Assembly: GCA_016281275.1 (NCBI GenBank)
Contig: JAEEIH010000006.1
Location: 1 to 44,662, forward strand
DNA from: Lachnospiraceae bacterium
Lineage (GTDB): Bacteria; Bacillota; Clostridia; Lachnospirales; Lachnospiraceae
Length of the DNA: 44,662 nt
Direction of reading: 5' to 3'
Of this stretch, positions 20,965 to 27,432 are shown piece after piece. Made by a program: the position numbers and the translations under genes. The notes beneath the pieces are model-generated. The model had not been told where the DNA came from. It worked only from the letters and a program-made list of their open reading frames with translations, and ran no database searches. Every line of letters starts with the position of its first letter. The stretch's first letter is position 1.

Positions 20965-23900
20965 ATGGCGTTTACACACCTTCATGTCCATACGGAATAC
21001 AGTCTTCTTGACGGCTCATCCAAGATAGATGAGATCGTCAGGCATGCAAAGGAGCTTGGGCAGGATTCGCTTGCCATAACTGACCACGGGGTCATGTATG
21101 GAGCCATTGCGTTTTATAAAAAGTGTCTTGAGCAGGAAATAAAGCCGATCATCGGTTGCGAGATCTATGTCGCTCCGGGATCGCGCTTTGAAAAGGAAGG
21201 AAGTACCGGAGATGACCGGTACAGGCATCTGATACTTCTTGCGAAGGACAATGACGGTTATAAAAATCTTATCAAGATCGTTTCGAAGGGCTTTACGGAA
21301 GGCTTTTATTATAAACCGAGAGTGGACCTGGAAGTGCTTCGCGAATACCATGAGGGAATCATTGCGCTTTCAGCCTGCCTTGCGGGAGAGGTTGCTTATT
21401 ACCTTCGACGGCAGCTTTATGATGAGGGCAAAGAAGCGGCGCTGAGGCTGCTTGATATATTCGGAGAAGGAAATTTCTTCCTCGAGCTTCAGGACCACGG
21501 TATACCCGAGCAGGCGCTTGTAAACGAACAACTTGTCAGGATGTCAAACGAAACCGGGATCCCGCTCGTTGCGACAAACGACGTGCATTATACATATGCG
21601 GAGGATGCGGGACCGCATGATGTGCTTCTTTGCATCCAGACCCAGCGAAAGGTCAGCGACACAGACAGAATGCGATATGACGGAGGACAGTTTTTCCTCA
21701 AATCAGAGGATGAGATGAGAAGCTTGTTCCCATACGCGCCGGAAGCGATCGACAATACAGCGGGGATTGCGGAAAGGTGCAATGTCACGTTCACCTTCAA
21801 TGAGTACAAGCTCCCGCATTTTGATGTTCCGGACGGATTCACTCCGTACACATATCTCGAGAGCCTTTGCAGGAAGGGACTCAAGGAGAGGTACGGCAAA
21901 GAGACCGGGGAGAAATTTGCTTCCCTTGAGGAAAGGCTCGAATTCGAGCTTAAGACCATCAGCAATATGGGATTCGTCGATTATTTCCTGATCGTTTGGG
22001 ACTTCATTCATTTTGCGCGTGAAAATGACATAGCGGTCGGACCCGGTCGTGGAAGTGCGGCGGGAAGCGTTGTGGCATATACGCTTGGAATAACAAACAT
22101 TGATCCCATCAAATTTTCGCTCTTTTTTGAGAGATTCCTCAATCCCGAGCGTGTTACGATGCCGGATATCGACATTGACTTCTGTTATGTGCGCAGACCC
22201 GAAGTTATCGATTATGTTACACGAAAATACGGCGCCGACAGAGTTGTCCAGATCGTTACTTTCGGTACGCTCGCGGCTCGAGGCGTGATAAGGGATGTCG
22301 GACGAGCAATGGACATGACCTACGCGCAGACCGATAGGATCGCAAAGATGATCCCGATGGAACTCAATATGACGCTCGACAAGGCGCTCAGCGTTAATCC
22401 GCAGCTGCGCGAGGCCTACGAGAAAGAACAGGATGTTCACACTCTCATCGATACCTCTAAGAGACTCGAAGGGCTGCCGCGTCATACATCGATCCATGCA
22501 GCCGGAGTGGTTATAGCGCCGGCTCCCGCGGATGAATTTGTTCCGCTTTCGAGGTCGGGCGACGGAGCAATAACAACACAATATACGATGACAACTCTTG
22601 AGGAGCTCGGGCTGCTCAAGATGGACTTCCTGGGGCTCAGGACGCTGACCGTTATACAGGACACAGTCCGCGCGGTAAACGAGACCTACCCCGACAGAAA
22701 CCTTGATATAAATGAGATCGACCTTGCCGACCCGAACATCTACGAGCTCATCTCGCAAGGCAGGACGGAGGGCGTTTTCCAGCTTGAAAGCAGCGGAATG
22801 ACTTCGTTCATGAAGGAGCTTGCGCCCTCGTGCATTGAGGATATTATCGCAGGCATCGCGCTTTATCGTCCGGGACCGATGGATTTTATCCCCAAATATC
22901 TCGCGGGAAAGAAGAATCCGGAAAGCGTTATGTACGAATGTGAGGAGCTCAGACCGATCCTTTCGCCGACCTACGGTTGTATAGTTTATCAGGAGCAGGT
23001 CATGCAGATAGTGCGAAACCTTGCGGGATACAGCTTTGGTCGCTCGGATCTTGTGCGACGCGCCATGTCAAAAAAGAAGCAGTCGGTCATGGATAAGGAG
23101 AGAGCGAATTTCGTCGGCGGGAATGAGGCGGAAGGCGTTCCGGGATGTAAAGCAAACGGAATCCCGGAGAAGATCGCCAATAAGATATTCGACGAAATGA
23201 TCGACTTCGCAAAATATGCGTTCAATAAAGCGCATGCGGCGGCATATGCGGTGGTCGCGATGCAGACGGCATTCCTCAAATGCTACTACCCGGTTGAATT
23301 CATGGCAGCGCTCTTGACGTCCGTCACGGAAAATTCCGACAAGGTTGCCAATTACATCTTTATATGCAGAAAGATGGGGATCAGGCTTCTGCCTCCGGAT
23401 GTCAATGAGGGAGGAAGCACTTTTACAGCCTGCGGAAAAGATGTGCGATATTCGCTTTCCGCCATTAAGGGGCTCGGTACGGCTGTTGTTGATGTGATCG
23501 TTGAGGAAAGATCCCGCGGCGGGAAATTTAAGAGCCTGAGGGATTTCATGGAGAGGCTCTCGTCAAAGGAGAGCAATAAACGTGTTATAGAAAGTCTTAT
23601 CAAGGCCGGCGCGCTGGACAGTCTGCCGGGTTCGAGAAGACAGAAGATGGTTGTTTATACGGACATTCTTGAAGGCGTTGCGATCGAAAAGAAAAAGACC
23701 GTTACCGGTCAGATGAACATGTTTGACCTCGGCGACGCGGGGCTGGCACGGGAGAATACAGAGGAATTTCCGGATATTCCGGATTACGATGTTTCCGAAA
23801 AGCTTGAGCTTGAAAAGGAAGTGCTCGGAATCTACGTCAGCGGTCATCCGCTCGATGCCTACAAGGAAATCCTTGATAAGAACGTTACTGCGACTAGCCT

Positions 23901-24447
23901 TAATTTCCTGCTTGATGAGGAAACGGGAGAGGTTGATCTTGAAGACAGGCAGAAAGTCGTGATCGGAGGGATCGTTTCGAACAAAAGTGTTAAGACCACA
24001 AGATCCGGTTCTCTCATGGCGTTCCTTACGGTTGAGGACCTTTACGGAAAGGTCGAGGTGCTCATGTTCCCGAAGGATTACGAAAAGTACGGGGACAAGC
24101 TCGATGTGAACGACAAGGTGCTTATAAAAGGAACCGCAAGCGTGGATGAGGAAAAAGGCTCGACTCTTTTGTTCTCGGACTTCACAGACCTCACCTCGTA
24201 CCCGAAGACGATCTGGGTGAAATTTAACGACGAGGCGGCCTTTGAAAACGGCAGAGTATTTCTCGGAACAGAGCTTGAGGATCGGCTCGGACACGATAAA
24301 TGCATTGTTTACATTGAAGAAACGAAGAGAAAGATCCTGTTCGATGACAGCGGGACGCTTGCCACTCCGCAATTGCTGGAAGCGCTGAGAAAAAAGTTCG
24401 GAGAGGAAAATGTGGTCGTGTCGGTCGGCAAATATTGGAAGAACTGA
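20965..24447 (+). CDS. dnaE: DNA polymerase III alpha subunit DnaE
   Basis: A 1160-aa replicative polymerase alpha subunit. ATG 20965 follows AAAAAGGAG and opens with the PHP domain motif HLHVHTEYSLLDG. The palm region has GPGRGSAAGSVVAYTLG and PDIDIDF (about residues 395-401, catalytic Asp residues), with LPRHTSIHAAGVVIAP, DFLGLRTLTVI and RPGPMDFIP further on. The fingers and helix-hairpin-helix regions follow, then an OB fold near residues 1000-1075 (VVIGGIVSNKSVKTTRSG, MAFLTVEDLYGKVEVLMFP). Length and lack of an exonuclease insert place it in the DnaE rather than PolC class. It precedes phosphofructokinase by 15 bp, the common dnaE-pfkA order of Firmicutes. Confidence 0.96.
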   Translation: MAFTHLHVHTEYSLLDGSSKIDEIVRHAKELGQDSLAITDHGVMYGAIAFYKKCLEQEIKPIIGCEIYVAPGSRFEKEGSTGDDRYRHLILLAKDNDGYKNLIKIVSKGFTEGFYYKPRVDLEVLREYHEGIIALSACLAGEVAYYLRRQLYDEGKEAALRLLDIFGEGNFFLELQDHGIPEQALVNEQLVRMSNETGIPLVATNDVHYTYAEDAGPHDVLLCIQTQRKVSDTDRMRYDGGQFFLKSEDEMRSLFPYAPEAIDNTAGIAERCNVTFTFNEYKLPHFDVPDGFTPYTYLESLCRKGLKERYGKETGEKFASLEERLEFELKTISNMGFVDYFLIVWDFIHFARENDIAVGPGRGSAAGSVVAYTLGITNIDPIKFSLFFERFLNPERVTMPDIDIDFCYVRRPEVIDYVTRKYGADRVVQIVTFGTLAARGVIRDVGRAMDMTYAQTDRIAKMIPMELNMTLDKALSVNPQLREAYEKEQDVHTLIDTSKRLEGLPRHTSIHAAGVVIAPAPADEFVPLSRSGDGAITTQYTMTTLEELGLLKMDFLGLRTLTVIQDTVRAVNETYPDRNLDINEIDLADPNIYELISQGRTEGVFQLESSGMTSFMKELAPSCIEDIIAGIALYRPGPMDFIPKYLAGKKNPESVMYECEELRPILSPTYGCIVYQEQVMQIVRNLAGYSFGRSDLVRRAMSKKKQSVMDKERANFVGGNEAEGVPGCKANGIPEKIANKIFDEMIDFAKYAFNKAHAAAYAVVAMQTAFLKCYYPVEFMAALLTSVTENSDKVANYIFICRKMGIRLLPPDVNEGGSTFTACGKDVRYSLSAIKGLGTAVVDVIVEERSRGGKFKSLRDFMERLSSKESNKRVIESLIKAGALDSLPGSRRQKMVVYTDILEGVAIEKKKTVTGQMNMFDLGDAGLARENTEEFPDIPDYDVSEKLELEKEVLGIYVSGHPLDAYKEILDKNVTATSLNFLLDEETGEVDLEDRQKVVIGGIVSNKSVKTTRSGSLMAFLTVEDLYGKVEVLMFPKDYEKYGDKLDVNDKVLIKGTASVDEEKGSTLLFSDFTDLTSYPKTIWVKFNDEAAFENGRVFLGTELEDRLGHDKCIVYIEETKRKILFDDSGTLATPQLLEALRKKFGEENVVVSVGKYWKN

Positions 24448-24462
24448 GAAACGGAGGTTGCT

Positions 24463-26541
24463 ATGGCTAAAGCAAAGACAACAAAGGCAGTTACGGAAGA
24501 AGTTGAGAATGCAATAAAGACTTATGAGAAAATCCCCATGGGTGAGGGAAAAACGGTTAAGAAGATCGGAGTTTTGACGAGCGGCGGCGACGCGCCCGGC
24601 ATGAACGCAGCGGTGCGCGCGGTGGTCAGAACCGCGATAAATTACGGGATGGAGGTTGTCGGCATTAAGCGCGGATTCTCGGGACTCATCGAGAACGACT
24701 ATGTTCCTCTTACCGGCAGAAGCGTCGCGGACACGATCTCAAAGGGCGGAACTTTCCTTTTTACTGCAAGATGTCCCGAGATGATCACCAAAGAGGGGCA
24801 GGATCTTGCGGCGAAGAATTGCATCGAGCAGGGAATAGATGCGCTCGTCGTTGTAGGCGGCGACGGTTCGTTCAAGGGCTGCCTGTCGCTCGCGGAGCGG
24901 GGCATAAACGTTATCGGGATCCCCGGAACGATCGACCTTGACATAGCATGCACAGAATACACTATCGGCTTCGATACGGCGATAAACACAGCCATGGAAG
25001 CCATTGACAAGATCAGAGACACCTCGACATCACGTGAGAGATGCTCGATCATCGAGGTTATGGGACGCCACGCCGGCTACATCGCGCTCTGGTGCGGTCT
25101 CGCAAACGGCGCGGAAGCGGTGCTCACGACAGAACTTTATAATTACGAAGAAAAGAAACTTATTGACGATATAGAGCTTAAGCGCAAGAACGGCAGACAG
25201 CATTACATAATCATCAATGCCGAAGGCATCGGCGATTCCGAGGGCATGGCAAAGCGCATCGAGTACGCGACCGGTATGTCCACTTCGGCGACGATCCTCG
25301 GTTATCTGCAGCGCGGCGGCAGTCCTACATGTAAGGACAGAGTGTATGCTTCGGCCATGGGTGCGAAAGCGGTCGACATCCTTTACAAGGGCGGAAGCAA
25401 CAGGGTTGTTGCCTACAAAAACGGCGGCTTCTGTGATTTTGACATGAAGGAAGCGCTCGCAATGAAAAAGAACCTCGATCCGTTCCTTGTCGATATGCTC
25501 GGCAAGCTGACGAGAAAGGGTGAGGGCAAGGGTCTCCTCAGAGAGGGCATGCTTCCTTCGGATGCGACCACCGGGAAATGCAAGACCATCGGCGTGCTCA
25601 CGAGCGGTGACGACGCGCCCGGAATGAACGCAGCCATCCGCGCTGTCGTCAGATCGGCAATCGGCTACAACATGAGAGTTTTCGGATTCCGCAGAGGTTT
25701 TGCCGGTCTCATCGAGAAGGATTACATTGAGATGACGAACAAGACCATGTCCGAGACGGTACAGCTCGGAGGAACACAGCTTCTCGCTTCGGACTGTCCC
25801 GAATTCCTCACGGATGAAGGACAGGAAAAGGCCGTGGAGACTCTTAAAGAACTCAAGATTGACGCGCTCATCGTCCTCGGAGGAAACGGAACTATGAGAG
25901 GTGGGCTCGACCTCATCAAGAAGGGCGTCAATGTTATCGGTATTCCCGCGACCATCGACTGTGAGGTTGCGTGTACAGAATATACTATCGGTTTTGACAC
26001 CGCAGTAAATACTGCGATGCAGGCCATTGACAAGATCAGAGATACATCCCAGTCGCATGAGCGCTGCAGCGTGATCGAAGTTGCGGGAAAGCGCTCGGGA
26101 TTCAATGCGCTTTGGTGCGGTATCGCAAACGGCGCTGAGGAGATCATCATCCCCGAGTATTATGACAGGGATGAGCAGCGCATTATAAGCGAGATCATCA
26201 GCAAAAAGAAGCTCGGAAAGAGGCTTCATCTGATCGTCAATGCTCACAGTGTGGGCAGGTCCGGCGCGCTTGCGAAAAACATCGAATTCGCAACCGGGCT
26301 CGAGACACGCGCCAACATTCTCGGCCTTGTAGAGAGTGGCGGACGTCCGACCTGTATGGACAGGGTGTTCGCATGTGCTATGGGAGGAAAAGCTGTCGAG
26401 GCGCTTAACAAGGGGGGTCGTAACAGGATCGTCGCATTCTGTAACGGTGAATTTGTCGATTTCGATTTCGAAAAGGCTATGCGTATGGAAAAGACGCCCG
26501 ACACTTACCTTTATACCATGTCAAAGAAGCTTTCGAGATAA
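24463..26541 (+). CDS. pfkA: Double-length phosphofructokinase (two fused PFK domains)
   Basis: A 692-aa protein with two complete phosphofructokinase domains, residues about 33-347 and 374-692; bacterial PfkA is normally one domain of about 320 aa. The N half keeps the catalytic set: TSGGDAPGMNA, Arg103, GGDGS (132-136, ATP type), PGTID with Asp158, MGR (200-202), Glu254 and Arg284. The C half has TSGDDAPG, Asp444 instead of Arg, GGNGT, PATIDCE, AGK, His595 and Ser625 at the matching places, so it should not catalyse. The inter-subunit Arg that binds substrate phosphate (E. coli Arg243) is Ser275 in the N half but kept as Arg616 in the C half. It catalyses fructose 6-phosphate phosphorylation; the C half is probably structural or allosteric. 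Start follows GGAGG. Confidence 0.95.
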   Translation: MAKAKTTKAVTEEVENAIKTYEKIPMGEGKTVKKIGVLTSGGDAPGMNAAVRAVVRTAINYGMEVVGIKRGFSGLIENDYVPLTGRSVADTISKGGTFLFTARCPEMITKEGQDLAAKNCIEQGIDALVVVGGDGSFKGCLSLAERGINVIGIPGTIDLDIACTEYTIGFDTAINTAMEAIDKIRDTSTSRERCSIIEVMGRHAGYIALWCGLANGAEAVLTTELYNYEEKKLIDDIELKRKNGRQHYIIINAEGIGDSEGMAKRIEYATGMSTSATILGYLQRGGSPTCKDRVYASAMGAKAVDILYKGGSNRVVAYKNGGFCDFDMKEALAMKKNLDPFLVDMLGKLTRKGEGKGLLREGMLPSDATTGKCKTIGVLTSGDDAPGMNAAIRAVVRSAIGYNMRVFGFRRGFAGLIEKDYIEMTNKTMSETVQLGGTQLLASDCPEFLTDEGQEKAVETLKELKIDALIVLGGNGTMRGGLDLIKKGVNVIGIPATIDCEVACTEYTIGFDTAVNTAMQAIDKIRDTSQSHERCSVIEVAGKRSGFNALWCGIANGAEEIIIPEYYDRDEQRIISEIISKKKLGKRLHLIVNAHSVGRSGALAKNIEFATGLETRANILGLVESGGRPTCMDRVFACAMGGKAVEALNKGGRNRIVAFCNGEFVDFDFEKAMRMEKTPDTYLYTMSKKLSR

Positions 26542-26682: not shown

Positions 26683-27432
26683 ATGATCATGTTCGATTTT
26701 TCGCTTTCCAAACTTGGGGACGCGATCACAGGAAACATCGGCACCGTTGCCATCTTCGTTTCCATCATTGTAGCGGTTTTTCTCATCGCTTTTCAGGCTG
26801 AGAAGATCATCAACAGGGCAAATGAGAGAGTTGAAAAGAAAAGCTTCAAAATCCACCGCATCACCATTATTGCGATGCTTTCGGCGGTAGCGGTCATTCT
26901 TAATCTTCTGAGTTTCCCGCTTTGGTTTGCCCCCGGCTTTTATAAGCTTGACTTTAGTGAGCTTCCCGTGCTTGTCGGCGCATTTGCGCTCGGACCGGTT
27001 GCCGGAACAACGATCGAGGCTGTCAAAATTCTTCTCAATCTCGTTATAAACGGCACTGCAACCGCATTTATCGGTGAAATTGCCAATTTTGTTGTGGGAT
27101 GTGCATTTGTAATCCCGGCCGCAATAGTGTATTATCATAAGCGTACCAAAAAAGGAGCGCTTGTTGCGCTTTCTGTCGGTACGGTGGTAAATCTTATCGT
27201 GGCTTGTTGTATGAATGCTTTCGTGCTCATACCCGTATATGCGAACATGTTCCACATGGACGTTATAGGAGCCGGAACTGCCGTTAATTCGCTTATCACG
27301 GACATGACGACATTCGTGCTTCTTGCGGTGGCGCCTTTCAATCTTCTTAAGGCTGCAGCGGTATCGCTTGTTACGGCATTCATTTATAAGCCGATCAGTA
27401 AGCTTATCACAAGTGTTAAAGACAAGCAGTGA
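26683..27432 (+). CDS. ECF transporter S component, RibU-like
   Basis: A 249-aa membrane protein with about six hydrophobic spans. After an N-terminal helix (about 20-40) comes FKIHRITIIAMLSAVAVIL, LDFSELPVLVGAFALGPVAG and a long conserved helix, typical of the substrate-binding S component of energy-coupling-factor importers. The LDFSELP motif resembles the riboflavin transporter RibU. No ECF ATPases are encoded nearby, consistent with group II ECF systems that share one energising module. I see no FMN riboswitch in the 140 bp upstream, so the riboflavin assignment is a family-level guess. The ribosome-binding site CAGGAG is about 11 nt before ATG 26683; ATG 26689 is an alternative. Confidence 0.82.
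   Translation: MIMFDFSLSKLGDAITGNIGTVAIFVSIIVAVFLIAFQAEKIINRANERVEKKSFKIHRITIIAMLSAVAVILNLLSFPLWFAPGFYKLDFSELPVLVGAFALGPVAGTTIEAVKILLNLVINGTATAFIGEIANFVVGCAFVIPAAIVYYHKRTKKGALVALSVGTVVNLIVACCMNAFVLIPVYANMFHMDVIGAGTAVNSLITDMTTFVLLAVAPFNLLKAAAVSLVTAFIYKPISKLITSVKDKQ

Follow-up and report, generated by a model that had tools for sequence, protein, structure and literature searches.

A tandem PfkA phosphofructokinase with reciprocal residue loss between its halves, probably of independent origin, in a genus of Lachnospiraceae

In bacterial phosphofructokinase (PFK), Arg243 of each subunit reaches across into the active site of its neighbor. Excerpts of PMC12203962 and PMC12889660 place the active sites at the interface of the tetramer and describe Arg162 as contributed by the neighboring subunit. 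The eukaryotic tandem PFK-1 proteins (PFKM, PFKL, PFKP and yeast PFK; TIGR02478) are chains of 750-1000 aa that arose by duplication and fusion and combine a live N half with a C half that has no ATP site. According to excerpts of PMC12203962 and PMC7702303, the pocket of the eukaryotic C half binds F2,6BP, and the excerpted text of PMC12203962 describes the tandem fusion for eukaryotes only. Among the matches listed from the open-licence literature, no title or abstract start reported a bacterial tandem PFK.

Here we describe a tandem PFK gene in a 44,662-nucleotide stretch of DNA from a Lachnospiraceae bacterium (contig JAEEIH010000006.1 of assembly GCA_016281275.1; hereafter the window). 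Both halves of its product are PfkA domains like those of Geobacillus stearothermophilus PFK (GstPFK) and EcoPFK, and the gene is found at the same dnaE-pfkA locus. The protein differs from bacterial PfkA in that it is fused and in that its halves reciprocally lack parts of the composite active site. Like the eukaryotic tandem proteins, it would combine a live N half with a C half lacking the ATP site, although in a shorter chain of 692 aa.

The tandem gene and its distribution

The tandem PFK ORF (24463..26541, plus strand, as are all features given below) encodes 692 aa and contains two complete, PfkA-type PF00365 domains in one open frame, in agreement with the preliminary description of this DNA. 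The ORF starts 15 bases past the end of its upstream neighbor dnaE (20965..24447; assigned by its Pfam domains), and inspection by eye showed a GGAGG preceding its ATG. The protein begins with a Lys-rich extension (residues 1-32; 24463..24558), the length of which varies across the genus, followed by the N-terminal PFK domain (24562..25383; 345.9 bits against PF00365), which keeps its own-site residues and is predicted to be the live half. A linker at about residues 348-374 (25504..25584), which is longer in the homolog L078, leads to the C-terminal PFK domain (25588..26406; 292.6 bits), which has lost its own-site residues and is predicted to be the dead half. Comparison of the extensions of L070, L078, L089 and L090 revealed very different lengths and, in some species, KKETAKK-like repeats.

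Against the ATP-PFK equivalog model TIGR02482 (cut-off 371.35), the N half scored 375.9 and passed, whereas the C half scored 334.4 and fell below; both halves passed NF002872 (388.5 and 341.8, cut-off 253). The tandem protein scored 179.5 bits against the PPi-PFK model TIGR02477, which has a cut-off of 587.95. Additionally, Gly was present at positions 104 and 124 of the N half in 18/18 tandems (MAFFT alignment); we take these glycines to mark the ATP rather than the PPi type, and on that assumption the N half is of the ATP type.

A gene for an ECF transporter substrate subunit (26683-27432) lies directly after the tandem pfk. The identity of this subunit is 75-86% in some close relatives and 58-59% in others, and in other sub-clades of the genus it is not adjacent to pfk; this uneven identity and missing adjacency suggest that the gene was replaced or moved.

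We found the tandem PFK in 23 of the 24 genomes of the window's genus, in two of which it was cut by contig ends, and the sole genome without a match was 71% complete. The 21 genomes with full-length frames encode tandems of 679-756 aa, and a Pfam family search of all 24 genomes turned up no single-domain PfkA. MAG records account for every one of the 18 named tandem loci, 16 titled Lachnospiraceae and two Clostridia, with goat omasum, sheep and yak rumen, horse faeces and buffalo among the sources. Outside the genus, no tandem appeared among the matches listed for samples of the family (60 genomes), the order (295), the class (391) and the phylum (398), which overlap and whose listed matches could miss a divergent tandem. 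Seven rows of the order sample with reported frames above 600 aa were fetched, and all proved to be single-domain PFKs of 324-348 aa. No unfused neighboring pfk duplicate was present at the 62 single-domain loci (L091-L152), each of which had one PfkA match. PFK matches were also present in 75 plasmid records, and the 30 matches listed each spanned about 1 kb at 39-49% identity.

A second PF00365 gene, scoring 58-139 bits, was present in 19 of the 24 genus genomes, so glycolytic flux may be shared between its product and the tandem enzyme rather than running through the latter alone. In the window's genome this gene (L003, G000:C158) has a 556-aa frame with GGDD and PKTID motifs, and its first 297 aa pass NF005482 (456.3, cut-off 446). 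These features point to the long PPi-dependent PFK (PRK07085/NF005482), a member of the same superfamily encoded separately from the tandem; the assignment to the PPi type applies to the window's genome alone among the 19. Acquisition of the C half from this second gene was rejected in view of its PPi type.

Reciprocal loss of residues between the two halves

Residue equivalences were obtained from pairwise HMMER alignments to GstPFK chains and from a MAFFT alignment, and GstPFK numbering is used throughout. Counts for the genus refer to 24 ORFs from 23 genomes, namely 21 full-length ORFs and three pieces (two genomes being cut by contig ends). The residues that had previously been mapped by eye fell in the equivalent places assigned to them. 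As a baseline, Gly11, Arg72, Asp103, His160, Arg162, Met169, Arg171, Arg243 and Arg252 were invariant in 106/106 single-domain relatives, while Ser105 was present in 105/106 and Glu241 in 102/106.

In the N half, the catalytic base Asp127 corresponds to D158 (codon 24934..24936; kept in 22/22), GGDGS 132-136 to positions 101-105, M200-G201-R202 to 169-171, E254 to 222 and R284 to 252. This half retains Gly11 together with Arg72, Asp103, Ser105, Met169, Arg171 and Arg252 (the last six in 22/22 or 23/23). Position 243, however, is S275 in the window (codon 25285..25287) and was Ser in 12 and Thr in 11 of the 23 ORFs. His160 and Glu241 were likewise absent from the N half (each of the three residues 0/23), whereas the C half had all three in 23/23. 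In their place the N half carried Gln (16) or Arg (7) at position 160, and Pro (17), Ser (5) or Thr (1) at position 241. In the window's protein, the equivalents of His160 and Glu241 are R191 and S273 in the N half and H532 and E614 in the C half, the same pattern as for Arg243, and these positions may mark interface contacts that carry the donated arginines.

In the C half, Arg162 and Arg243 correspond to R534 (codon 26062..26064) and R616 (codon 26308..26310), both kept in 23/23, and R616 is predicted to complete the N-half site. The preliminary description had pointed out this retained pair; since Arg162 also remains in the N half (R193, codon 25039..25041; 23/23), the cross-subunit pair is only partly divided between the halves.

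The remaining C-half equivalences are D383 for Gly11, D444 for Arg72, N475 for Asp103, T477 for Ser105, D499 for Asp127, A541-G542-K543 for 169-171, H595 for 222 and S625 for 252. Across the genus, Arg72, Asp103, Ser105, Met169, Arg171 and Arg252 were absent from this half (each 0/23), and Gly11 was retained in one of 24 rows. Position 72 was Asp, Asn or His (Asp in 20/23), position 103 was Asn, Glu or Thr, and Thr at 105 and Ala at 169 were fixed (23/23 each). Lys occupied position 171 in 17 of the 23 ORFs and one of six other residues in the rest; position 252 was Ser, Cys, Asn or Gly, and position 249 was Leu, Ile or Ser. The C half had been described as having lost its catalytic residues; this is true of the residues that bind ATP and phosphate, but the general base is still there, D499 (codon 25957..25959) being kept in 23/23. 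The Thr125 equivalent was also kept in 23/23, and the Asp129 equivalent was Asp (14) or Glu (9). The listed loss at H595 is present in the window, but the change of Glu222 to His was limited to 9/23.

We then scanned the 137 positions that were conserved in 95% or more of 69 single-domain relatives, thinned from the 106. The alignment, the trees and the scan excluded singles below 350 bits, ORFs below 320 aa and L083, which is cut by a contig end, and in one alignment the row of L064 begins inside its N-terminal extension, with its domains unaffected. With loss defined as retention of at most 10%, no position was lost in both halves, while five were lost from the N half alone and 17 from the C half alone. 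The five N-half losses were positions 160, 192, 213, 243 and 296; the change at 213 was only Lys to Arg, and positions 192 and 296 were also half or mostly lost in the C half. Among the 17 C-half losses, positions 96 and 109 were also mostly lost in the N half. With 11 residues that we take to be the PFK own-site residues, 6/11 were among the C-half losses (p 0.0005) and 0/11 among the N-half losses. The scan confirmed that the reciprocal loss between the halves is beyond chance.

Both halves are under purifying selection, and the C half is maintained rather than decaying: the median dN/dS was 0.020 for the N half and 0.031 for the C half, with a highest C value of 0.082. Of 210 pairs, only the 23 whose dS lay between 0.1 and 1.5 entered these values, because synonymous sites were near saturation.

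Predicted assembly of the tandem enzyme

In bacterial PFK the active site is composite, consisting of a subunit's own catalytic residues and Arg162 and Arg243 of its neighbor, and this makes complementary loss possible. In the genus ancestor, the single pfkA downstream of dnaE would have been duplicated in place and then fused, and either copy would have become free to drop residues that its partner went on providing. Catalysis would have stayed with the N half, which would have given up the Arg243 that it donated, together with His160 and Glu241; the donated residues would have stayed with the C half, which would have ceased to bind nucleotide and sugar phosphate. Identical subunits cannot provide a full composite site, as the N half lacks Arg243 and the C half lacks Arg72, Asp103, Met169, Arg171 and Arg252; catalysis is not to be expected of a half that has lost Arg72, Asp103, Arg171 and Arg252. 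Where Arg243 is missing, the partner must supply it, and N-half catalysis with C-half arginines is the sole completing combination, so N:C pairing would be obligate.

In the assembled protein, the N half would therefore face the C half across the active-site interface, giving each chain one live ATP-dependent site, built from N-half catalysis and R534/R616 of the C half, and one dead site. The C half would serve as a scaffold, as an arginine donor and as half of the effector (E) sites. We infer this pairing geometry, together with the activity and regulation of the enzyme, from the residue pattern, which fits within-chain and between-chain N:C pairing alike and supports the earlier proposal that each N/C pair has a single live site. 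Taken as a whole, we consider it likely that in-place duplication and fusion, followed by reciprocal loss, led to obligate N:C pairing with one live site per chain and an arginine-donating pseudo-kinase as the C half.

The bacterial PfkA effector residues Arg21, Arg25, Arg154 and Glu187 are common to both halves, as is a basic residue at position 213. Arg211 was lost in both halves, and it varies in single-domain relatives too. The two effector sites are expected to be unequal, because the C half has lost His215, which the N half retains, and carries Glu in place of Asp59 (18/18).

The dead site had been proposed to be free to become allosteric, and the reciprocal loss had been likened to what happened in animal and fungal PFK. 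For animals, comparison with the mammalian muscle, liver and platelet chains does not bear out this likeness: they keep the Arg243 equivalent in both halves, whereas the bacterial N half has lost it, so reciprocal loss is not the animal pattern. Retention of Arg243 in both mammalian halves fits a C pocket that binds F2,6BP; in the bacterial C half, the sugar-pocket residues are lost. The mammalian C half has Gln at position 252, where the bacterial C half has also lost Arg, and thus a sugar site can persist when Arg252 is the only residue lost. In the bacterial C-half pocket, however, the loss of Arg252 is combined with absence of the facing N-half Arg243 and a hydrophobic residue or Ser at position 249, and an F2,6BP site of the animal type is unlikely there. 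The bacterial tandem has divided its composite site further than mammalian PFK has, and it probably lacks an effector site of that type.

Another ligand in the dead pocket is possible, and the assembly proposed above would then stand with the C-half site serving as a regulatory site for a new ligand. The decay of the C pocket is not random, as the fixed Thr105 and Ala169 and the frequent Asp72 illustrate, the C half is under strong purifying selection, and the eukaryotic F2,6BP site offers a precedent (excerpts of PMC12203962). The sugar-phosphate ligands are gone, however, including Glu222 in 9/23 besides the residues named above, as are Arg72, Asp103 and Arg171 of the ATP site and nearly always Gly11, and the fixed residues may only reflect packing. 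We therefore regard a new ligand as doubtful. An equally tentative proposal goes further: an independently fused PFK with its site divided both ways, more strictly than in mammals, with obligate asymmetric N:C pairing and a new effector in the dead pocket, would mean that regulated PFKs of the tandem type arose on two occasions and by different routes.

Less probable still is an assembly in which N halves pair with each other and are active without Arg243 through local compensation, leaving the C half only a regulatory or stabilizing role. The presence of Arg162 in the N half would allow it, and the Arg that replaces His160 in 7/23 ORFs, including the window's R191, could compensate; but the other 16 have Gln at this position and still lack Arg243, and N:N pairing leaves the full retention of His160, Glu241 and Arg243 in the C half unexplained. 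It is very unlikely that the C half is itself an active enzyme that has acquired an altered donor or substrate. Although the general base D499 and the Thr125 equivalent are fixed and position 129 remains acidic, the C half lacks Arg72, Asp103, Met169, Arg171 and Arg252, and in 23/24 rows Gly11, all of them invariant in the 106 singles, and the partner arginine is missing from the N half.

Origin of the tandem gene

The N and C halves of a tandem are 53-57% identical, and in four tandems compared with their nearest single-domain relatives the N half was 67-68% and the C half 57-58% identical to them. In the phylogeny, the N halves formed one clade (support 100) and the C halves another (100), and the two were sisters among Lachnospiraceae PfkA with support of 90/91; a quick tree with 27 singles gave this sisterhood a support of 89. 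The main tree included nine of the 18 tandems, and in it the N+C sisterhood was not starred and the backbone was unresolved. The C stem was about three times longer than the N stem (0.82 vs 0.27), and the alternative topology with the C halves outside the N halves and singles had an AU p of 0.18, a tree that is not rejected. dnaE adjoins pfk in 36/41 tandem loci, where contig ends limit the other five, and in 56/62 single-domain loci tested; of the six single-domain loci without it, two have about 300-400 bases upstream and four have about 4 kb and no match. Based on the identities, the sister trees of the N and C halves and the shared dnaE locus, in-place duplication and fusion of pfkA is the favored origin.

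A separate origin at the dnaE-pfkA locus had been claimed, together with a tree of halves as its test, and the identities and the locus support the claim. The tree placed the halves as sisters within Lachnospiraceae PfkA, but trees that join them to mammalian halves were not rejected: the C halves with mammalian C halves gave an AU p of 0.53 and the N halves with mammalian N halves 0.076, which is above the 0.05 level. These values come from eight of the 18 tandems and 126 columns, too few columns with too long branches; the branch of the mammalian C halves measured 5.9 changes per column. They are what acquisition of the tandem from a eukaryote or from another tandem family can draw on, a route that we consider very unlikely. 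Over the same stretch, mean identity to Lachnospiraceae single-domain PfkA (N 68%, C 56%) was far above that to the muscle N half (N 40%, C 33%) or the muscle C half (N 31%, C 28%). Moreover, the tandem protein reached 411.7 bits against TIGR02478, whose cut-off is 708.4, and its gene occupies the dnaE locus of the single-domain genes. The tandem thus probably originated separately from eukaryotic tandem PFK.

That the tandem is an assembly or binning artefact is refuted, despite the fragmented assembly of the window's genome (2.43 Mb, 220 contigs, 82.6% complete), by the divergence of its halves and by the recurrence of the fusion across the genus, in 21 genomes within a continuous frame, with goat, sheep, buffalo, yak and horse among the sources of the named MAGs that carry it.

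PFK is a textbook case of duplication and fusion creating new control. A second event, in bacteria and probably independent, with close single-domain relatives and 23 genomes at hand, opens the order and cause of the losses to study. It also raises the question of whether any new regulation comes only after the two copies have been locked to each other, as by a ratchet, through reciprocal loss across the active site that they share.
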